Positions 3,898 to 57,083 of a stretch of DNA of 64,000 nt are shown here, in pieces (the stretch's first letter is position 1; each line of letters opens with the position of its first letter). Origin of the DNA: Rapana venosa. Taxonomy: Eukaryota; Mollusca; Gastropoda; Neogastropoda; Muricidae. The notes beneath the pieces were generated by a model. It was not told the origin of the DNA and ran no database searches. It was given only the letters and a program-made list of their open reading frames with translations. The stretch lies in contig CM054140.1 of NCBI GenBank assembly GCA_028751875.1, positions 24,598,135-24,662,134 of the forward strand. The letters are read 5' to 3'. Both the position numbers and the translations under genes were made by a program.

Positions 3898-6626
3898 CAT
3901 TAGAGTGATGTACTTGTGATCTGCTGACCCAGGTTTGATTCTCGTTCAAGAGGATTTTTCCTCTGGAGTTAACATCAGTGCCAACTCCACTCTCCCAACA
4001 GTATTTCGGATGAGACTATAAACCGAGGTCCTGTGTGCAAACGCATGCAGAACATCTTGCACATATGTTAAAACCCGTTCTGCTTTTAGGAAGAGTAGGC
4101 CATTGTGTGCTGGCGGGAATGGATGACAAAATTTACAAAACTGCGTACACACGGGGACTGGATGGAAAAAAGCATATGAGTACTTATTCCATTACCTTGA
4201 AATAAAAGATTCAAAATAAAGAAGACACACACACACAAGCTATAAAAGCACAGTCACAACACACTCTTTCCCAGTTTGTTTAATTCATAAATCGCTAGCC
4301 CTCATACCTTTTACACTGCCAGTCGTCAGCACTGAACAGTCCTTTGCTTTTTTCCGCCATGGCTTTGCCGATCTCTGTCCCACCTTTTTTGAATACCGTC
4401 CCATCTTTCCGATCTGGAACCAATGCTGCTCAAAGCAGATGCCCAAGCACACAGTACAAAGTACATGTGTACACGCACGTGTAGAGGTCAATATTAATTG
4501 AGAAAAAAGAACAGACAGAGGGGAAGGAGAGGAACCAATGTTACACTTATGGTGAAGTAACTCGAAGTTCTTGTAAAGCAAATTTTCTTCTAAAAAGGAA
4601 AGAGGCACGGTATACACAATTTAACAGTTCATCCTCAGCACCTCTGTGGCACTGACATGAACGTTTAATTCTTAACATTTAACAAAACAGTTTTAAGTGG
4701 TTAAAGTGCCGGACTTCTGATTCGAAAGACACAGGTTTGTTAAGCCCAAGTCATAGATTATGGAGTTGGGTCAGGGTATTTTTCTTCATTTAACGCTGGT
4801 CAGGACTGGATGGACACTATACTGCAGCCAAGTGGCTAAGGCTGTTTGACTTCAATCCTGTGGGACTACAAAGTTGTGGAACTGAATCTTGGCAGCAGCA
4901 TCTGGTGAATTAAGGGCTGGGATTTTTATGAAGTGCCAGGTCTGTTAAAGTGCAGACCTGCCAGTGCCTTACTCATTGAGGTTGTGCCAAATCTTAAGCT
5001 TCAGCACTCCTCTCCTTCACTGTGACGTGCCGAAGCTTAAGATTCGGCAGAATTACAATTTTTTTTAAATACACTAAAGTGATGTTCAACTCAAGGGAAA
5101 GTACTCTGGCCTGCACAGCAATCATTTTTCTAAACACAGTTGCTTTCCTTGACCATAAGCTTGTCTAGTTTGTGTCTGTTGGCTAATTTTGCTTGACATG
5201 TCAACAAGTGATATCTTTGGGATTTCAGGCTCTCCAGTGTTATGATTCTTTAAAAAAAAAAGTTATACAAAAAGTGACATCAGATGGATTCAGCCAACTT
5301 CAGGGAACTTTACTTTGGTGAAAAATAATCACATTGCTTGAAGGGGACTAGCGGATGAACAGTTCAAGCTATGTAAAGATAAGCAGCCCTAGTTTTCAAA
5401 ACTTTTTATTTTTCAGCATTCAGTGACATATGTTGAAAATTTGTAAAAAATAAATAGTCATCTATTGAAAAACTATAAAACAATCTCAAAAGTAGACATT
5501 ATAAACTTTTCAATGATGTATAATGTGTATGTAATTATTATGTTGGGTAAGTCTGCTGAATTTTTCAAATATAGCCCAAATCACGTGTAGCCACAAAACG
5601 GTGGGACTCATTTCACTGCAACTCCATTGAGTTAATTCCCTTTATCACATGCAGAAGATCATGATATACACATTAAAGATCCCATAATTCATGTCAACAT
5701 TTGGTGGGTTATGGAAACATGAACGTACCCAGCATGCATCCTGTAAAAAACATAAGCTGCTCTGATGATGGAATGTGTTGGCTAAGACCAGTGGGCAAAC
5801 CTCCTGTAGAGTTACAAGCACAAGAGTAGACCAGGCACTATGCTGCATGTATGCATCCCACCCTATACTATAGAATAACTTTAAACAATAAGGTAATGCA
5901 GGGAAGAAAATTTTGAGAGAAACCTGTCAGGACTGACTTGATCCCTGGAAGACTTTGGATGAGGTTATAGAAATGACGACCAGACAGCAAACACAATATT
6001 TAGCAATTTTATACATGATGCATATACATGCATTAAAATAACCTGTCCATTTTTTTATGAAGAGCACTTACACTTGTTATGGTCCAAGATATGACATGGA
6101 TTTTATAATACAGAAAATACTCCGCATCTACCGAAGGCTTTGCTGTTGCGTGTGACTGAAGACCTGGTGAAGGATCTGCCCAACTGCCAATATGATGAAG
6201 CATATTTTCCACTCCCTATGTAACACCTTGTTGGGAATGTCAAAACCCAAATCCCATCATTAAGATTATGGGAACTTTTGTCTTTTTGTACAAACAAACA
6301 AAAAAAGTTTCACGTCCAGACTCAAGAGTCTGATTGTGCTACAGGCTCGTTTTCTGCCATGTATTGCAAATGAAAGTGTTGAGCACTCAGGAAGCTAAAG
6401 AAGAGACTTGGGGTGGGGTGGGGGTATTCAGTTGTGATAATAAATATTTCTAGAACTGTGCTTAGTTCCTTCAAACATCTATGAACTTGGTATTCTCCCA
6501 CAAACTCATAATAAGCACACTCTGCATACTAAAGCAAAAAACCACTTAACCAGTGACACTAGTGACAGCATTCACCTCGTAAAAAGAAATTGAACGCCCC
6601 CCTTCCCCCCAAAAAAAAAACAACAA

Positions 6627-23644: not shown

Positions 23645-25847
23645 AAAAAAAAAGATGTACAGAGTTAAGCAGGTGAAACTGATACCCAAAATAGAAGATC
23701 CATACATGACAAAATAAACATGTACCTCTCTCCTCCCCCACTCACAGACACACAATCATGCATCAATATTTTACAAATACAGGTGCACACACTGACACTG
23801 AATCTGAAATATAACTTGAAACAATTTCAGTCATCCAAAAGGTGACATACTAATGCAGGTATGCATTTTTTCCCCAAAGGTTTGACCAAAAAAAACATGA
23901 AACACATGGTGTTCACACATTTTTTTCTCTAATCTCTAAGACTGGGGAAATAACAAACCACATAATTATCTGCTGCTAATGTGGTCCTACTTAATCAAGA
24001 TGCACTGTCACCTTAACATAAGTGTTATTGCTGTTATAATTCAGACAATATATTTTACCACTGCTGTTTTGTCAGATAAAAGCAAAGAATGCCAACAATA
24101 AAAAAAGAAAGAATTAAAAAGCATTCTTGTTTAGAATTTAAACAAAATAAACATAATTGACACTTTCATTGTAGACGGTTGCTTTCTCTCTTTTAACAAA
24201 TTGCTTTTCATTCTTCGAATATCCTTCTCTTTTTAGCTGTATTATAACGGTACATCTGTCTATCAAACCTCCACAACACTGACTAATAATGAGAAACAAC
24301 ATCCTGCTAATCATCAAGATGTATGATTCTTCTAGGCGTGCTCCTCTCCACACAGCTGCACCTACTGGAAGCCCTTAGTGACCGAGGACAAAGCGTGAAG
24401 TGACTCCTTACAATACTCATGGATCATATTTAGATTTGCGCTCATCGCTATATTGCTCTCACAGTATCATCATATCACAAAACGATACCTCCCCCAAACC
24501 ACCACCACCCCCTCCCCCCAAAAAAAAGAAAAAAAGAAAAGAACCAGCAACAAAAAATTCCAAACAAAACCCAACCACCCCATCATAAACAAACAAGCAA
24601 AACAGAAGAGAGAAAAAATCCCCAACCGAATAAACAAAACAAAAAAACCAAATCATTATTTTTACAGTTTATATGACCTCAAAAAGCTTTTTTCAAGGGC
24701 TTTTGTACAAATATTATATAATCAATCCATCAACCTGCACAAATATTTGCAAGCAATCATTCAACCAATCATCCAATACAAACAATTATTACCAAAAAGA
24801 ATATATTTCAATCAATCAATCAATCAAACCATTTTATTTTCTTTTTCTGTCCATCACTTCAGGCACTTTAACAGGAGGGCAATTTAGAAAAAAAAGAAAA
24901 GTTCACACTATGGAGATAACATAAACACACCATCAAAAATAAGATGAAAAAATATGATTTCCACCAGTTTTATATATTATACTGCCGTGATATTTTTAGG
25001 TTTCAAGTATCTTTGTCAAAGTCACCCCCCATCCCCACCCCATCATGTCGTATATTTTCTGTCTCAGTTCAATTTTCTTTAATGCAGAACATTTTATGTC
25101 TTTGCCTCATTTTTTTTCAAGTAATATAATTATTTTATTAAAAATTTATCTGATTTTACTAGAATCTGTTTTCAATACTCACAAGCATTACACTCGATAC
25201 ACAAATTATATATATCTGAAAATGTAAGTTGCCGTGGGGTTCTTTTACAAGTGTCTTAATGTTATGTTGCACACAAAACATTAGTTTACCATCTCATCCA
25301 AAAGATTGCACCCAGATGATCACTCACACACACCACCACAACAAACTAGTGAAAATTCTGGCTTTAGACAGGACTAACACTGAAGCCTCTGAGTGTAACC
25401 ACTAGATACAATACCTTCCCAACAAACACACGCAAGAAACCTTTTAAAAGCTGAGTGCAGACAATATCTCAGGCAAGCAATATCTCTAATATCTCTAGGT
25501 CCTCCCTAGTTCTGATATCATATGGTCAAGATACATATTTGGATACAAATGACGATACTCCAAATCAACTTTGGTATCTTTTGCACCTCAGTGCTCATTC
25601 AATTTTTTGTTTGGGTTGAGAAAAAACCCCAACCCACATGATGATAAATCAAATCAAAGTCGGTAACTCTTTGTGTCTACTATGTTCTTTGGTCAACATA
25701 CACTGGAAACATGATGATATTCAAAATCAATTTAGTCATCTCAAATCCTTCCATGTTTGCTGCGTTGTTTGATAACTAACTTGCAAAAATGATAGATATG
25801 ATGGTAATCCATATCGACTTAGGCATCTTTCTCTAAGTCTCTTCTGT
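23645..25847. other. Intergenic stretch without genes
   Basis: AT-rich, with C/A-rich patches (24490-24640) and (AATC)n runs (24808-24832). No exon or RNA gene recognised. Confidence 0.55.
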
Positions 25848-26392
25848 CCTTTGGTCAGGACAATTCTATCTCCGTTAAGATCTGTTCCATACTTTGGTCA
25901 GGACAGTTCTATCTCCATTAAGATATGTTCTATACTTTGGTCAGGACAGTTCTATCTCCGTTAAGATCTGTTCCATACTTTGGTCAGGCAGTTCTATCTC
26001 CATTAAGATATGTTCTATACTTTGGTCAGGACAGTTCTATCTCCATTAAGATCTGTTCTATACTTTGGTCAGGACAATTCTATCTCCATTAAGATCTGGT
26101 CTATACTTTGGTCAAGACAGTTCTATCTCCGTTAAGATCTGTTCTATACTTTGGTCAGGACAGTTCTATCTCCATTAAGATCTGTTCTATACTTTGGTCA
26201 AGACAATTCTATCTTCAATAAGGTCTGTTCTATACTTTGGTCAAGACAATTCTATCTTCAATAAGGTCTGTTCTATACTTTGGTCAAGACAATTCTATCT
26301 TCAATAATGTCTGTTCTATACTTTGGTCAAGACAATTCTATCTTCAATAATGTCTGTTCTATACTTTGGTCAAGACAATTCTATTTCTCTTA
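25848..26392 (+). repeat. Minisatellite, about 12-13 units of about 43 bp
   Basis: The unit reads tctgttctatactttggtca, then rgacarttctatct, then an attaag or aataag segment. Left units carry cgttaagat and tcaggacag; right units carry caataaggt/atgt and tcaagacaa. Variants are therefore graded along the array, as expected if it grew by local duplication. Confidence 0.93.
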
Positions 26393-26394
26393 AG

Positions 26395-26776
26395 TCAGGA
26401 TAGCCTGGTTGTTAGCATGATGTGCTCGAGATCTGCTGACCCAAGTTAGATTCCTGTTCAAGAGGATTTTTCCTCTGGAGTTAACATCAGTGCCGACTCC
26501 ACTCCCCCAAAAGTCCTTCGGATGAATCTATAAACCGAAGATCCCATGTACGAATGCACGCAGAACATCTTACACACATGTTAAAACCTGTTACGCTTTT
26601 CAAAAAAGTAGGACATTGTGTGCTGTTGGGAATGGATGACAAAATTGACAAAACTGCATACACATGGGGACTGGATGAAAAAATGCACATGAGTGCTTAT
26701 TCCATTATCCTCGAAATAAAAGAATAAATAAATAAATAATAAATGAATGAATGAATGAATAAATAAATAAATAAAA
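26395..26776 (+). repeat. SINE-A, essentially full length
   Basis: A head with box A (tagcctggttgttagcatg) and a box-B-like region is followed by every family block: ggagttaacatcagtgcc, aagtccttcggatga, acatcttacacacatg, an acacatggggactggatg block and a cttattccattatcctcg block. It ends in an (AATA)n tail. Two internal RNA polymerase III boxes mark it as tRNA-derived. Confidence 0.92.
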
Positions 26777-29276: not shown

Positions 29277-47057
<17,781 letters not shown>

Positions 47058-48344: not shown

Positions 48345-48680
48345 GGGATTGCCTGGTGGTTAGCGTGATGCGCTCGTGATCTGCTGACCCCAGTTCGATT
48401 CTGTTCAAGAGGATTTTTCCTCTGGAGTTAACATCAGTGCTAACTCCACTCTCCCCGCAAAGTCCATCGGATGAAACAATAAACCGAGATCCTGTGTGCG
48501 AGCGCACAGCAGAACTTCTTGGGCACACATTAAAACCCCTTCTGCTTTTTGGAAGAGTAGGCTATTTTGTGTCGGTGGGAACGGATGATAAAGTTTACAA
48601 AACTGCATCCACACAGGGACAGGATGAAAAAGCATATGATTGCTTATTCCATTATCCTCGAAATAAAAGTATTAAAAAAA
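48345..48680 (+). repeat. SINE-A, full length, best tRNA head
   Basis: Head gggattgcctggtggttagc with box A, and box B near 48391 (cccagttcgattctg). Then ggagttaacatcagtgcta, gtccatcggatgaaacaata, gaagagtaggctattttgtg, ggacaggatgaaaaagcata, and attatcctcgaaataaaag. Confidence 0.92.
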
Positions 48681-49169
48681 TTTTTTTCACATAAAAACAA
48701 TTCCTGACCTGCTGATCCTACTTCATTCATTTTATCTCATCATTTCCGCCATACCCAGGCTCATAATGAGGTCTGCTTAGGGTTAGAAATCCAAGGAGAG
48801 CTTATCAATGTTAACCTGCCTGGAGGCCACTGAAAAGAAGGACCATGCATGGCTGCCAGAGGATCACTTTGATGATATTCAGTGGTACTTGTTCTGATCA
48901 AGATATGCTGGACACCACCTTTTAAGCTCCTTACTGACAACAAAATTGGCTTAATGGTGGACCTAGATTTTGAGTTGGATATTGGGTGGTGATCACCACC
49001 ACATCCTGCATCAACCTTCCCCTATGTTCTTCTGACCCCAAAGGTTCTATCATCAAAGAACTCACACCAGGCAAGAAAGTGTATGGGAAAACAAAACTGA
49101 GGTTACAATGAGACAACAGCAACAGAGGCCAACAAATCAGAGATAATGTTCTTTTGTTGCATGATGGTC

Positions 49170-52379: not shown

Positions 52380-52416
52380 ATATGCTGGGCAGCTTTGACT
52401 GAGGACAGCTGAAAGG

Positions 52417-53451
52417 ATGGGTGTGCCACCAGGTGCTGGCCTGGCCGTGGACCCTGGTGTGTATCACATCAACCAGCCCTCCATCTGTGGCCAGCACTCT
52501 GAGGTGCTGCTTCTAGTCATCATCAGAACTGTCTTCGCTCATTTTGACCGCCGCACAGTCATCCGCGAAACATGGGCAGCACGCAAAAACTACCACGGTT
52601 CCTTCATCCACGTCTTGTTCTTCTTTGAAATACCCGACAACAAACACATTCAGGAATCTATACAGAGAGAAAGCACGTTGTGTAAAGACATCGTGCAGTA
52701 CACCATCGAGTACCCTGAATACACAAATTTGACGTTAAAAACCTCTGTTGCGTCTCAGTGGGTGAGTGAGTTTTGTCCTCAGGCTAAGTTTGTCCTTGTG
52801 GCTGACGATAACGTGGTGGTTGATATCTTCAAAATTCTGCCTTTTCTTCGGGACCAGCTTGAAGCAGGCAAGCCTACCTCCAGCTCTATTGTGTTGTGCC
52901 ATTATCGAACGTCAGCCAGCGAAATGCTGGTATCCAAACAGGAGGCGGCATCAGATGAAGATCACCATTTTTGCAGCAACGAGGCTTACGTTGTGTCCCC
53001 TTCAGTCTTGGAACAGCTGTACCTCACGATCAAACTCAAAGGCTTGGACCTGAAGCAGCCACACTTGTGGCTCAGTCAGGTGGCCGAAGCAGCAGGGATC
53101 AAGTTCACCAACACCTCACAGCACTTTGCCGGAGCAAGGAAGAAACCCTCAGTGCTAAAGACCTTCATGGCCATGGATTATGTGTCGAGTTCAGTGATGA
53201 TCGGCATCGTCAGTGAGCTCTTCCAGGGCAAAGAGGCCACCATCATGCGACACATCTGGCGAATCATTCAGGAGCACCACTCCAAGATGCAAATTTCCAA
53301 CGTTTATCACGCACAGTTTCCTCCACACAAAGGCCATGACATTGGCGGAGTCAAGTTCATGGCCATTGTCTTGATGTGTGTGGACTTTGCTGTCGTTGTT
53401 GTCATCTTTGCGCTGATTTTTTGCAAACGGAAGCGTAAAAAGTGGTGGTGA
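52417..53451 (+). CDS. GT31 (beta-1,3-galactosyltransferase-like) protein, divergent, with C-terminal membrane segment
   Basis: A 344-aa intronless frame with the layout of the GT31 family, which transfers galactose or GlcNAc in beta-1,3 linkage in the Golgi. Seen: RRTVIRETWA (45-54), YTNLTLKT (102-109), ADDNVVVD (129-136) at the DxD site, CSNEAYVVS (186-194) for the usual CSGGGYVLS. QPHLWLSQ (214-221) sits where EDVYVG is usual. Two N-glycosylation sequons are at N104 and N232. There is no N-terminal signal anchor; instead residues about 313-335 form a strong hydrophobic segment followed by KRKRKKWW. An in-frame TGA 19-21 bases before the ATG supports this start, although a spliced upstream exon entering after that TGA is possible. 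With the DDD and EDV motifs changed it may be inactive or differ in chemistry. Codon use is clearly coding and GC-richer than flanks. Confidence 0.88.
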   Translation: MGVPPGAGLAVDPGVYHINQPSICGQHSEVLLLVIIRTVFAHFDRRTVIRETWAARKNYHGSFIHVLFFFEIPDNKHIQESIQRESTLCKDIVQYTIEYPEYTNLTLKTSVASQWVSEFCPQAKFVLVADDNVVVDIFKILPFLRDQLEAGKPTSSSIVLCHYRTSASEMLVSKQEAASDEDHHFCSNEAYVVSPSVLEQLYLTIKLKGLDLKQPHLWLSQVAEAAGIKFTNTSQHFAGARKKPSVLKTFMAMDYVSSSVMIGIVSELFQGKEATIMRHIWRIIQEHHSKMQISNVYHAQFPPHKGHDIGGVKFMAIVLMCVDFAVVVVIFALIFCKRKRKKWW

Positions 53452-55802
53452 AAATACATCCATGGATAAATGTCTGGTTTAGTTCTGAGTAGTTTGACAA
53501 AATGGTATTGAGAGAGAGTAGAATTTGAATGTGTAAATTGTACTAGCTTAGGACAAGTGGGTTGGACACAGTAATGGAATTGGATGTAAATGGTGTAAAG
53601 TCTGTTTGTTGGAAACTGGGGTGAAAGGGTATTGTAATATTGTAAGTGGTGTATATGGGAACCACCAGAGGTGAGAAGAAGAAAAAGAGAAGTGGAAGAC
53701 AAATTTGGAAAGGGTAGACCTGAGAGCTCTTTGGGCTTCTAGGTGTGTCCAGGGCTGGGTAGTGCCCTTGATCAGTTGATGGGATGGATTGGGGGCCAAG
53801 TCTCTAGAAGCTTAATGAGTTGTGAATTTTTACTTTGAAAAAGAACACCATAGACTTGTAAACAGGATTTTTCTGACTCAGAATTTACAAAATGGTCTTG
53901 AATGAGGCAGTTCAAAGTTTCCTAAGGTCCAACATACATAGAGTGACACACACACATATGGCACACGCGCACACGCACACACTTGCGCACACTCTCTCTC
54001 TCACACACACACACTTTATTTACACCCAAGAATTTGATCAACAGATTAATCAATGAACTCTGATCTCAAAAGTGGCCGAGGGGAATATTTCAGAACCTAT
54101 TTCTACCACAGACCAGGTGCATAATTCTTGTTAACCTCAAAACATATCTGTGTGTGCGTGTGTTGAATGTACTTTGTTTTAAAAATGTATATTGTTTCTG
54201 GACAGCAGTATGCATAAAAAACCTATTGGTTTTTGTATAAAACAGTGTATAGCAGCATGAACTGCATGGTGCCTTTGACCAGTTAGTGGTCTAGTTTATG
54301 GTAGTTAGTATAATAGTAGTCTAGTATTGTAGTAGTATGCTTGAACTGTTTATTTTTAATATAATTTATATAAAGATTTTCTTCAAAACACTTAAGAATG
54401 CAAATCAAGGCAAACACACATATGGTGATACATGTACCCAGTATTATTACACACACACATCCTCCACATATATGCAGACATCACTCATTAAGGTAAGCTT
54501 TTGAAATTATGCATGTCTGCAAAGAGATGCTTTCTTCTTTAATTGGAAGACGACATTACATTGCCATTTTCTTGCCAAGCATGAAAGACTGATATTATGT
54601 GCAGAGTTCACTTCCTAGCCAAGATTGTAGAATCTCATATCTCTGGTATGTCAGTTAGTTGTTAGTTTGAGAGAGAGCGAGAGAGAGAGAGATTGTAGTT
54701 AAGTGTACTATTTTATTTGTTATTTTTACCATATATATATATATATATATTTGTTTATAACTTATAAATTTGAAACTGCTGCACCAACATCATGTTGACA
54801 GAGGATGTGAATACAAAGATATTAGTTTCAAATATACATAACAGAAAAGTTAGATTTTATTGTATTCTTAGGCCCAGTGTGTTCATTCATGAGTGATAAA
54901 TAAAATAGCAATAGCTAGATCAGAAAAGTCTTTTTATTTATTTGAATTGCAAGAAAAAGTTTACTGTTGAGAATGTAGTTGTTTTATAAGAATACATTGT
55001 TTAGTTTATTTTTTCAACGCTGATGTTACATAGTTGTAGTATTTTTACAATCATGAATAATAAAGTTTGTATTTGTTTATAATTTAACAGTGTTGTTCAT
55101 TTTGAGAAAAAGGTGGTGAAGGTGGTGGTGGTGGTAATGGTGGGGGCAGGAGATAATAATCAAGTTTGAGTGAATATGAGATGCATTGAAAAGAAGAATA
55201 TAAAGCAGTTCAACCACATTTTCTCTCTTCTTTTTAAAAAACTGCCAATGTCACATTGGTGGTTTCAATATCTGGGTGCGCACTTTTGACTTCAATCTCA
55301 AAGTATCCCTGAGGCACGGTTGCATGAAGTCGATGAAGTTCTGGGTGTCATCAATATGCTTTTTACAGGATCACTCACTCACTCACTCACTCACTCATGC
55401 ACTCACTCTCTCAGTCATGCATGATGCATCTTAAGCATAGATCAGCCAACCACGGACCCCACACCAGGACAGCGACCTCATTGAGAATGAAAGCTAAATT
55501 TTGTGTACATGTCCCTCAGCTAGACCTTCAAGGTGAGGCCAACTGTGTATGCAACTGTTTTTACCCACCGTTAAGGTAGCAGCATTCTGACTTCAGGGAC
55601 AAGCTGCTCAAATTTAAATTGAAGAAGCATCTGTCAATGAAAACACATGTCAGAAACTAATTTTTCCCCCTCATCTCTGCGCTAATATCAAAATCAGTCA
55701 CAAGGGCCACACCAAGGCTGTTGAGTCATCACATAGTGAAAGAACCACCATAGTGGCAGCCTGAAATGAGATAGCAGTCAGTAACTGATTCTTAACATTC
55801 AG
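53452..55802. other. 3' region of the GT31-like gene and intergenic DNA
   Basis: After the stop codon there is AT-rich DNA, probably 3' UTR to about 55080. Then follow a (GGT)n run (55112-55140), an (ACTC)n run (55375-55398) and a repeat D copy at 55507-55602 (cagctagaccttcaaggtga, then cgttaaggtagcagcattct). No other exon seen. Confidence 0.55.
55059..55064 (+). terminator. Candidate poly(A) signal of the GT31-like gene
   Basis: AATAAA at 55059-55064 is followed by a GT-rich stretch (gtttgtatttgttt), the usual arrangement. A second AATAAA at 54899-54904 is an alternative. Either implies a 3' UTR of about 1.4-1.6 kb containing CA and TA microsatellites (53947-54015, 54733-54752). Confidence 0.55.
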
Positions 55803-55814: not shown

Positions 55815-56499
55815 TCTTCTTATTCCTTATAGCTCCTAGCGGAGCATAGGGCCTCAACAGCGTCCTTCCACCATCTCCTGTCTCTGGCAAGGGTCTTGGC
55901 CTCTTCCCATGTCAGGCTGGAGTCTCTCAGCTCACTATGCAGGCTTCTCCTCCAGGTCTGTTTGGGGCGCCCTCCTTCCTTTTCCCCTGCGGGTTCCACT
56001 CGAGCGCTTGTCTGGTGATGTTGCAAGGCTCCTTCCGTAGGGTGTGGCTGACCCAACGCCACTTTCGCCGCCTTACTTGGACTTCCATAGACTGTTGGTT
56101 CGCCCTCATCCACAGGTCGGTATTTGGCACTCTGTCGAACCATCTGAGATGAAGGATCTGCTGGAGACATCCGTTGATGAAGGTCTGGATCTTGGAGGAG
56201 CTGGTGTTGATGACCCGCCAAGTTTCTGACCCGTAGAGAAGCACAGACTTCACGTTGGAGTTGAAGACCCTGAGCTTGGTGGTTGTGGAGATCGCATTTC
56301 TTCTCCATATGGGTTTCAAGATGGCAAATGCTTGGCGTGCTTTCTTTATTCTTGCCTTGATGTCTTCGTCTGTGCCTCCTGTCTGGCTGATCTTACTGCC
56401 CAGGTACACAAATTCACTGACATCCTCTACTGCTTTCCCAGGGATGGTGACAGGAGCCTCTTGCTGGTTGTTGGTACGCAGTAGCTTGGTCTTCTCTTG
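55815..56499 (-). mobile_element. 5'-truncated LINE insertion with frameshifted ORF2 end
   Basis: On the minus strand a frame runs open from the upstream border: EKTKLLRTNNQQEAPV, FVYLGSKISQTGGTDEDIK, SVLLYGSETWRV, ILHLRWFDRVPNTDLW, RRRKWRWVSHTLRKE, LEWNPQGKRKEG. It then shifts frame near 55976 and continues GGRPKQTWRRSLHSELRD to WKDAVEALCSARS and a stop at 55822-55820. This is the segment after the reverse-transcriptase domain of a non-LTR retrotransposon polyprotein. The insertion is bounded on both sides by agaattgggtct. It cannot make an active protein. Confidence 0.93.
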
Positions 56500-56511: not shown

Positions 56512-56737
56512 AAAAGGCTGTAAAATGGTACTTTTTGTTTTTAAAAGCTGAATTCTCTCAGGAATACAAAACTAATGTCTGATGGATTATCTCAGAAAGG
56601 GCCTCCAAGGAATCTGCCGTTAAATATGTATGCTTTTTACGTCCTGAACATCGAACTTTTGAGAGATCATCCCTAGTGTCACGCATCATGGGTATGATAC
56701 AAGACCAGCGGTGTTGCCCACATGGGATGGGAATGAT

Positions 56738-57083
56738 TGATTTATTTATTTCTTTGATATCGAGGATAATGGAATAAGCATTTATGTGCTTTTTTTACAT
56801 CCAGTCTCCGTGTGTTTGCGGTTTTGTAAATTTGTCATCTGTTCCCATCGGCACACAATGGCCTACTCTTACGAAAAGCGGAACAGGGTTTAATGTGTGT
56901 CCAAGATGTTCTGCATGCGTTCGCACATGGGACCTCGGTTTATAGTCTCATCCAAAGGACTTTTTGGGAGAGTGGAGTCTGCACTGATGTTAACTCAAGG
57001 GGAAAATATTCCCTTGAATGGGAATCGAACCAGGGTCATCAGATTGCGAGCGCAATTTTCTAACCACTAGGCTATCCTGTCCC
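56738..57083 (-). repeat. SINE-A, full length, minus orientation
   Basis: Plus strand runs from the tail (tttatttatttctttgatat, cgaggataatggaataagca) through tttttacatccagtctccgt, cggcacacaatggcctactc and tttatagtctcatccaaagg. It ends at the head complement (gaatcgaaccagg for box B, taaccactaggctatcc for box A). Close to consensus. Confidence 0.93.

Follow-up and report, generated by a model that had tools for sequence, protein, structure and literature searches.

A GT31-type protein of Rapana venosa with replaced active-site residues and a C-terminal membrane helix, a candidate non-catalytic binding protein of the early secretory pathway

We analyzed a 64,000-nucleotide stretch of the genome of the muricid gastropod Rapana venosa (GenBank assembly GCA_028751875.1, contig CM054140.1, positions 24,598,135 to 24,662,134 of the forward strand; hereafter the window), in which one open reading frame (ORF) encodes a protein of the glycosyltransferase family 31 (GT31) type with its membrane helix at the C-terminus. 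In our judgment, the chances are even that this protein is a GT31 relative without catalytic activity, anchored in the membrane, and that its role is to bind a partner or cargo early in the secretory pathway. An earlier interpretation made from the letters alone (the sequence-only reading) had proposed a pseudoenzyme or a re-purposed GT31 fold, and this proposal agrees with the replacement of six of nine compared active-site residues in a conserved protein whose fold is predicted to be complete.

The longest stop-free run in the window was 350 codons; over 200 first-order Markov simulations of the window, this measure averaged 160.5 and peaked at 258. The frame, noted earlier as intact over 1 kb, was present at the stated coordinates and exceeded every simulation. 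The ORF matched Pfam PF01762 (Galactosyl_T) at 7.7e-20, with 71.9 bits against a cut-off of 23, and a complete GT-A fold of the GT31 type was predicted. The conserved family frame recognized earlier was present (DRRTVIRETWA, TNLTLKT, and FCSNEAYVVS). On this sequence evidence, the protein is a GT31 relative by descent.

The active site was compared by alignment with that of human beta3GalT5, in which D126 and K134 hold uracil, Y128 is the general acid, K154, D156, and E242 serve the donor sugar, D158 and H285 the metal, and D243 is the base (PMC11969544); B3GNT2 carries equivalent DDD, base, His, and uracil residues (PMC7948508). In the window protein, K154 is replaced by V128, D158 by N132, E242 by P215, D243 by H216, and H285 by E267, and no acidic residue occupies the position of D126 (P100 by offset, Y99 in alignment A4, which comprises 113 of 120 listed proteins plus the window protein, 114 rows in all). 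K108, D130, and Y102 are retained. Both acidic motifs that had been read as changed were indeed changed, with ADDN at residues 129-132 and, instead of the expected EDVYVG, QPHLWLS at residues 214-220. The third DxD residue is not acidic (D-D-N, the metal Asp being Asn), the xED motif has no Asp as general base (P215-H216), and the metal-binding C-terminal His is Glu267 in the alignment, which is gapped at this end and leaves the exact place less sure. Since these three catalytic features were missing by sequence, the protein was not filed as a GT31 transferase. By way of comparison, CHSY3 D261N/D263N is among the mutants tested under a heading on impaired cellular chondroitin sulfate production (PMC12748766).

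A first protein search yielded 13 relatives, including proteins of Babylonia areolata, Nucella lapillus, Littorina saxatilis, Batillaria attramentaria, and Haliotis asinina, with matches spanning 91-100% of the query except in P0012 (77%). Among the matches listed, Octopus sinensis, Argonauta hians, and Lymnaea stagnalis came from an alignment search, and Owenia fusiformis (Annelida), Tubulanus polymorphus (Nemertea), and Acanthosepion pharaonis (Cephalopoda) from a second one; these searches covered the best 120 of 263 and the best 120 of 242 matches, and the family range is accordingly a lower bound. Family membership (33 rows, 15 in the gastropod clade and 18 others) was fixed from matches and alignments before two trees were built from 320 and 299 columns (filled in at least 50% or at least 60% of rows). 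The family formed one side of a branch both in the quick tree (32 of 85 rows; Shimodaira-Hasegawa-like approximate likelihood ratio test (SH-aLRT) 99) and in the careful tree (28 of 50 rows; bootstrap/SH-aLRT 100/100), separate from the remaining GT31 rows tested. The careful tree took in 28 of the 33 family rows and 22 others, and its gastropod subset of 12 rows was supported at 100/99; long branches were flagged for P0129 and P0018 in the careful tree and for P0070 and P0151 in the quick tree. The sequence-only reading had pointed to orthologues as a check: gastropod orthologues do share the motif changes and the C-terminal helix, and relatives in three spiralian phyla share them only in part. 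These features are therefore not peculiar to the window copy, which has the appearance of an ancient protein kept by conservation and not of a gene in decay.

Across the 32 family rows that cover the DxD motif (P0126 is without this region), none has Asp at both ends of the motif and none has Lys before it, and His was found in none of the 33 rows in the H285-equivalent column, which lies in a gapped alignment stretch. Of the 17 covering rows outside the gastropod clade, 9 read NDE at the triplet and 16 have an acid as its third residue; the base Asp survives there in 16 of 18 rows, usually in the form PDDAW. Of the 15 gastropod-clade rows, 13 have Asn as the third residue and none has an acid. 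At the base position, 14 of these rows carry H, R, Y, P, Q, or G and only Batillaria has Asp, and the Y102 position is His, Gln, or Asp in most rows. Because the rows outside the gastropod clade lack the Lys and the DxD yet nearly all keep the base, and nearly all gastropod rows lack both, the donor and metal side (donor Lys, DxD, metal His) seems to have changed first, and loss of the base to have followed in gastropods.

GT31 enzymes that carry their anchor at the N-terminus are classic examples of type II proteins of the Golgi, and B3GALT5 and Cosmc (C1GALT1C1) are both of type II with an N-terminal anchor. The same topology is seen for GT31-containing chondroitin synthases (PMC12748766). 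In the ORF as read, the N-terminal signal anchor was missing, as the sequence-only reading had observed: hydropathy analysis detected no hydrophobic N-terminal segment, an unseen upstream exon being possible, and the best N-terminal window (mean Kyte-Doolittle value 1.47) lies on the first fold strand. The hydrophobic helix and KRKRKKWW end noticed earlier were confirmed; over 19 residues, the mean Kyte-Doolittle value of the C-terminal segment peaks at 3.12, at residue 317. By hydropathy and by eye, the protein has a single transmembrane segment near the C-terminus without a signal peptide, as in a tail-anchored protein. A transmembrane-like C-terminus occurred in 30 of 216 proteins, 27 of them in the 33-row family and the other three being P0027, P0075, and P0151. 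Six family rows have no clear segment of this kind: P0020, P0021, P0023, and P0128 end at or before the last helix, P0127 falls below the transmembrane cut-off, and in P0012 the homology breaks off after FQG and unrelated sequence follows, the last-helix and membrane part being missing. This break, at a place where the window gene is continuous, may reflect intron read-through in that species. Since the orthologues and deeper relatives form one clade, the reversed anchor is an old family trait.

Outside the gastropod clade, the N-terminus is hydrophobic and signal-like in nine relatives (by eye and hydropathy; P0016 weak by hydropathy), and eight of these also carry the C-terminal helix, suggesting a type I topology for them. 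In the gastropod clade, C24, C120, C161, and C186 are present in all covering rows, C24 and C120 aligning with the beta3GalT5 disulfide Cys52-Cys146, and the N-x-T sequon is present in 14 of 15 rows, as expected of a lumenal, glycosylated domain. The evidence on gastropod topology points both ways, and we lean towards a lumenal position of the window domain, with a missed or unusual signal.

Regional identities were calculated for 12 gastropod rows (P0010 and P0012 left out). The last fold helix was 83% identical to that of Haliotis, compared with 20-57% for the eight preceding fold segments, and the xED block was one of the fold segments with the lowest conservation (0.50 pairwise and 0.25 to Haliotis). 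Within the membrane helix, 14 of 15 gastropod-clade rows have Asp at the Asp323 position, as do P0014, P0015, P0016, P0017, P0022, P0122, and P0126; the residue is Glu in P0121 and P0124, Asn in P0123, Lys in P0125, Gln in P0127, and Ser in P0019. With conservation highest in the last helix and close to its lowest in the xED block, and with a polar residue in the membrane helix, this pattern points to a use of the last helix and membrane segment for binding.

In our reading, the anchoring is reversed in this protein, with the GT-A domain first and the sole membrane helix, followed by a short basic tail, at the C-terminus. It belongs to an old clade of molluscs, an annelid, and a nemertean, many other members of which look type I with an unorthodox site, often N-D-E plus P-D-D-A-W; the gastropod branch has gone further by losing the general base. 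Computation supplies the predicted fold, the replaced catalytic residues, the conservation, the clade, and the C-terminal helix; the loss of activity, the gastropod topology, the compartment, and partner binding are inferences. We propose that the domain would reside in the lumen of the endoplasmic reticulum (ER) or Golgi, with sugar transfer gone, and would bind a partner enzyme or glycoprotein cargo through the near-invariant juxtamembrane helix and the polar residue of the membrane helix, and the KKxx-type tail, in the rows having one, would cycle the protein between ER and Golgi. A bolder version is put forward only tentatively, namely that in molluscs, annelids, and nemerteans the GT31 fold became a receptor, or a cargo receptor, of the type I membrane kind, with a conserved helix leading the domain into the membrane and a buried polar residue joining it to a partner, and that gastropods fully abandoned the site and possibly the classical signal peptide too.

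Several observations weigh against the proposed lumenal, non-catalytic binding protein. An exact KKxx end is found in 8 of the 15 gastropod-clade rows (window included) and in none of the 18 others, and is therefore a trafficking hint for that lineage only. D130, D131, and K108 keep nucleotide binding conceivable, and P0009 (Batillaria), with KDVWLS at the xED site, is the only gastropod-clade row with a base Asp, which may be a remnant or may have reverted. Six of the 17 other covering family rows have no sequon, which is therefore no family constant. None of the 14 gastropod-clade rows having an N-terminus looks signal-bearing by hydropathy and by eye, which would suit a lumenal domain only if an exon has been missed; among the 18 outside rows, P0015, P0019, P0020, P0121, P0125, and P0127 start without a clear signal, and P0022, P0023, and P0128 are cut short, so that a model lacking its first exon is indistinguishable from real absence. 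The in-frame TGA upstream of the ATG, the weak look of the splice acceptors between the two, and the good start context (A at -3, G at +4) favor the annotated start; a translated search of the window for an upstream signal exon gave nothing convincing.

The missing gastropod signals and the upstream TGA with its good start context also favor a tail-anchored, cytosol-facing protein, in which gastropods would have lost the signal peptide, the C-terminal helix would insert post-translationally, and the GT fold would work in the cytosol. All 14 gastropod-clade rows with an N-terminus start shortly before the fold, 13 of them have their first conserved Cys at residue 17-27 (P0005 at 36), although conservation just after the Met is poor, and the membrane helix stops nine residues short of the C-terminus. 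However, the nine signal-like relatives and the retention of the four cysteines and the sequon in the gastropod clade speak against it, and, as a general rule, a basic tail favors a cytosolic C-terminus. Tail anchoring, which the sequence-only reading had raised as a possibility, agrees with the single C-terminal helix and the missing gastropod signal and is not the reading we prefer; we consider it unlikely but a live alternative. If true, a switch to a cytosol-facing tail-anchored protein would be a stranger result than a lumenal domain.

An active transferase with an unusual and perhaps metal-independent site is, in our view, quite unlikely for the window protein. In its favor, K108 is invariant across the 114 rows. 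Either Asp or Glu can serve as the last DxD residue, and GCNT1-type enzymes work metal-free (PMC7948508). The base Asp and an acidic third DxD residue are present in nearly all rows outside the gastropod clade (16 of 18 and 16 of 17), and for octopus-like members this explanation stays a live one. In the gastropod clade, however, all 15 rows have lost the metal Asp, none has the metal His, 14 of 15 have lost the base, and the xED block is poorly conserved relative to most fold segments. A further alternative is a cell-surface receptor, with the dead domain as ectodomain and the polar residue of the membrane helix pairing with a signalling partner; the Asp at this position in 14 of 15 gastropod-clade and seven other rows, and the E, N, K, Q, or S of another six, would fit, but the KKxx-type ends in 8 of 15 gastropod-clade rows suggest early-secretory residence and the tails are short, so that we hold a receptor to be improbable. 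A decaying duplicate, the alternative left by the sequence-only reading, or a mis-annotated fragment could account for the six replaced residues and is contradicted, to the point of being highly improbable, by the intact frame longer than in any of 200 simulations, by the same substitutions in orthologues of several genera, and by the absence of Asp at both DxD ends from all covering family rows.

GT31 domains without a working site are known to have second lives, which offers an analogy to the function proposed here. Cosmc, likewise a GT31 relative without DxD, is a client chaperone (PMC5493369), although it is kin of T-synthase and not of the B3GALT/B3GNT branch; CHPF, which is without donor-binding residues, supports CHSY in the CHSY-CHPF complex and differs in its type II topology and in a second GT domain of family GT7 (PMC12748766). 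Human B3GALT5 (GT31; PDB 8zwp) has DSD, K154, E242-D243, H285, and a second disulfide Cys276-Cys307, which are changed or absent in the window protein (PMC11969544), and B3GNT2 (GT31; PDB 7jhl, 6wmn) differs by its DDD at 245-247, base D333, H376, and N-terminal anchor at residues 8-28 (PMC7948508). The tail resembles that of LMAN1/ERGIC-53 in its C-terminal dilysine and aromatic pair (KKFF; KKWW in the window protein and, counting it, in 8 of 15 gastropod-clade rows); in LMAN1 the short tail is cytosolic and KKFF serves ER-Golgi cycling (PMC10317151), and the comparison covers the tail pattern only, since the lumenal part of LMAN1 is an unrelated lectin domain. No description of a reversed anchor on a GT31 fold was found in the literature listings searched. 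A C-terminally anchored clade in three phyla would show that topology is invertible around an intact GT-A domain, and cephalopod and gastropod members would make a post-catalysis role of a glycosyltransferase fold testable in culturable molluscs.

Table 1. Positions of the gene, its predicted protein features, and repeat copies in the window
Feature	Position	Strand	Basis or remark
Whole ORF, 344 amino acids from ATG, stop included, intron-free inside	52417..53451	+	sequence; Pfam Galactosyl_T 7.7e-20
In-frame TGA, seven codons 5' of ATG	52396..52398	+	sequence
GT-A fold domain of GT31 type, residues 15-294, predicted	52459..53298	+	
Cys24, aligned with beta3GalT5 Cys52 (half of disulfide)	52486..52488	+	alignment; PMC11969544; kept in 14/14 covering gastropod-clade rows
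N104-L-T106 sequon, equivalent of conserved GT31 N-glycan site	52726..52734	+	alignment; PMC7948508
Lys108, equivalent of uracil-binding Lys (beta3GalT5 K134, B3GNT2 K223)	52738..52740	+	column invariant in 114-row alignment A4
Cys120, aligned with beta3GalT5 Cys146	52774..52776	+	alignment; PMC11969544
V128-A-D-D-N132 in place of K-T-D-x-D; sugar-binding Lys and metal-binding Asp gone	52798..52812	+	
Q214-P-H-L-W-L-S220 in place of xED motif; general-base position H216	53056..53076	+	
Glu267 at place of metal-binding C-terminal His	53215..53217	+	gapped alignment, placement less certain
Most conserved segment, last fold helix, residues 271-300 (GKEATIMRHIWRIIQEHHSKMQISNVYHAQ)	53227..53316	+	mean pairwise identity 0.89; 0.83 to Haliotis; predicted helix 273-300
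Transmembrane helix, about residues 313-335, Asp323 within	53353..53421	+	hydropathy; Asp in 14/15 gastropod-clade rows
Basic tail CKRKRKKWW, KKxx-type end with two aromatic residues	53422..53448	+	
Dispersed repeat copies	3900-4220, 26396-26740, 32215-32448, 35635-35887, 36773-36977, 41522-41757, 48346-48681, 56736-57079	both	

Downstream of the gene, AATAAA polyadenylation-like sequences occur at 54899 and 55059, 1.4-1.6 kb past the stop, and their use would mean a long 3' untranslated region. Two overlapping frames of 162 and 160 amino acids lie on the - strand at 55820-56409, 2.4 kb beyond the gene; of these, the second matches PF20049 (DUF6451, 3.7e-17) and reads like what we take to be the end of a non-long-terminal-repeat reverse transcriptase, and the frames are probably a decayed retrotransposon. 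Copies of a dispersed repeat, which measures up to about 340 bp and is probably a short interspersed element, occur on both strands with 80-89% identity in the pairs listed (40 of 102 alignments), and none of the listed copies lies inside the gene. A tandem array with a 43-bp unit (12.9 copies, 93% matches) was found at 25834-26384, where it adjoins one copy of the dispersed repeat.
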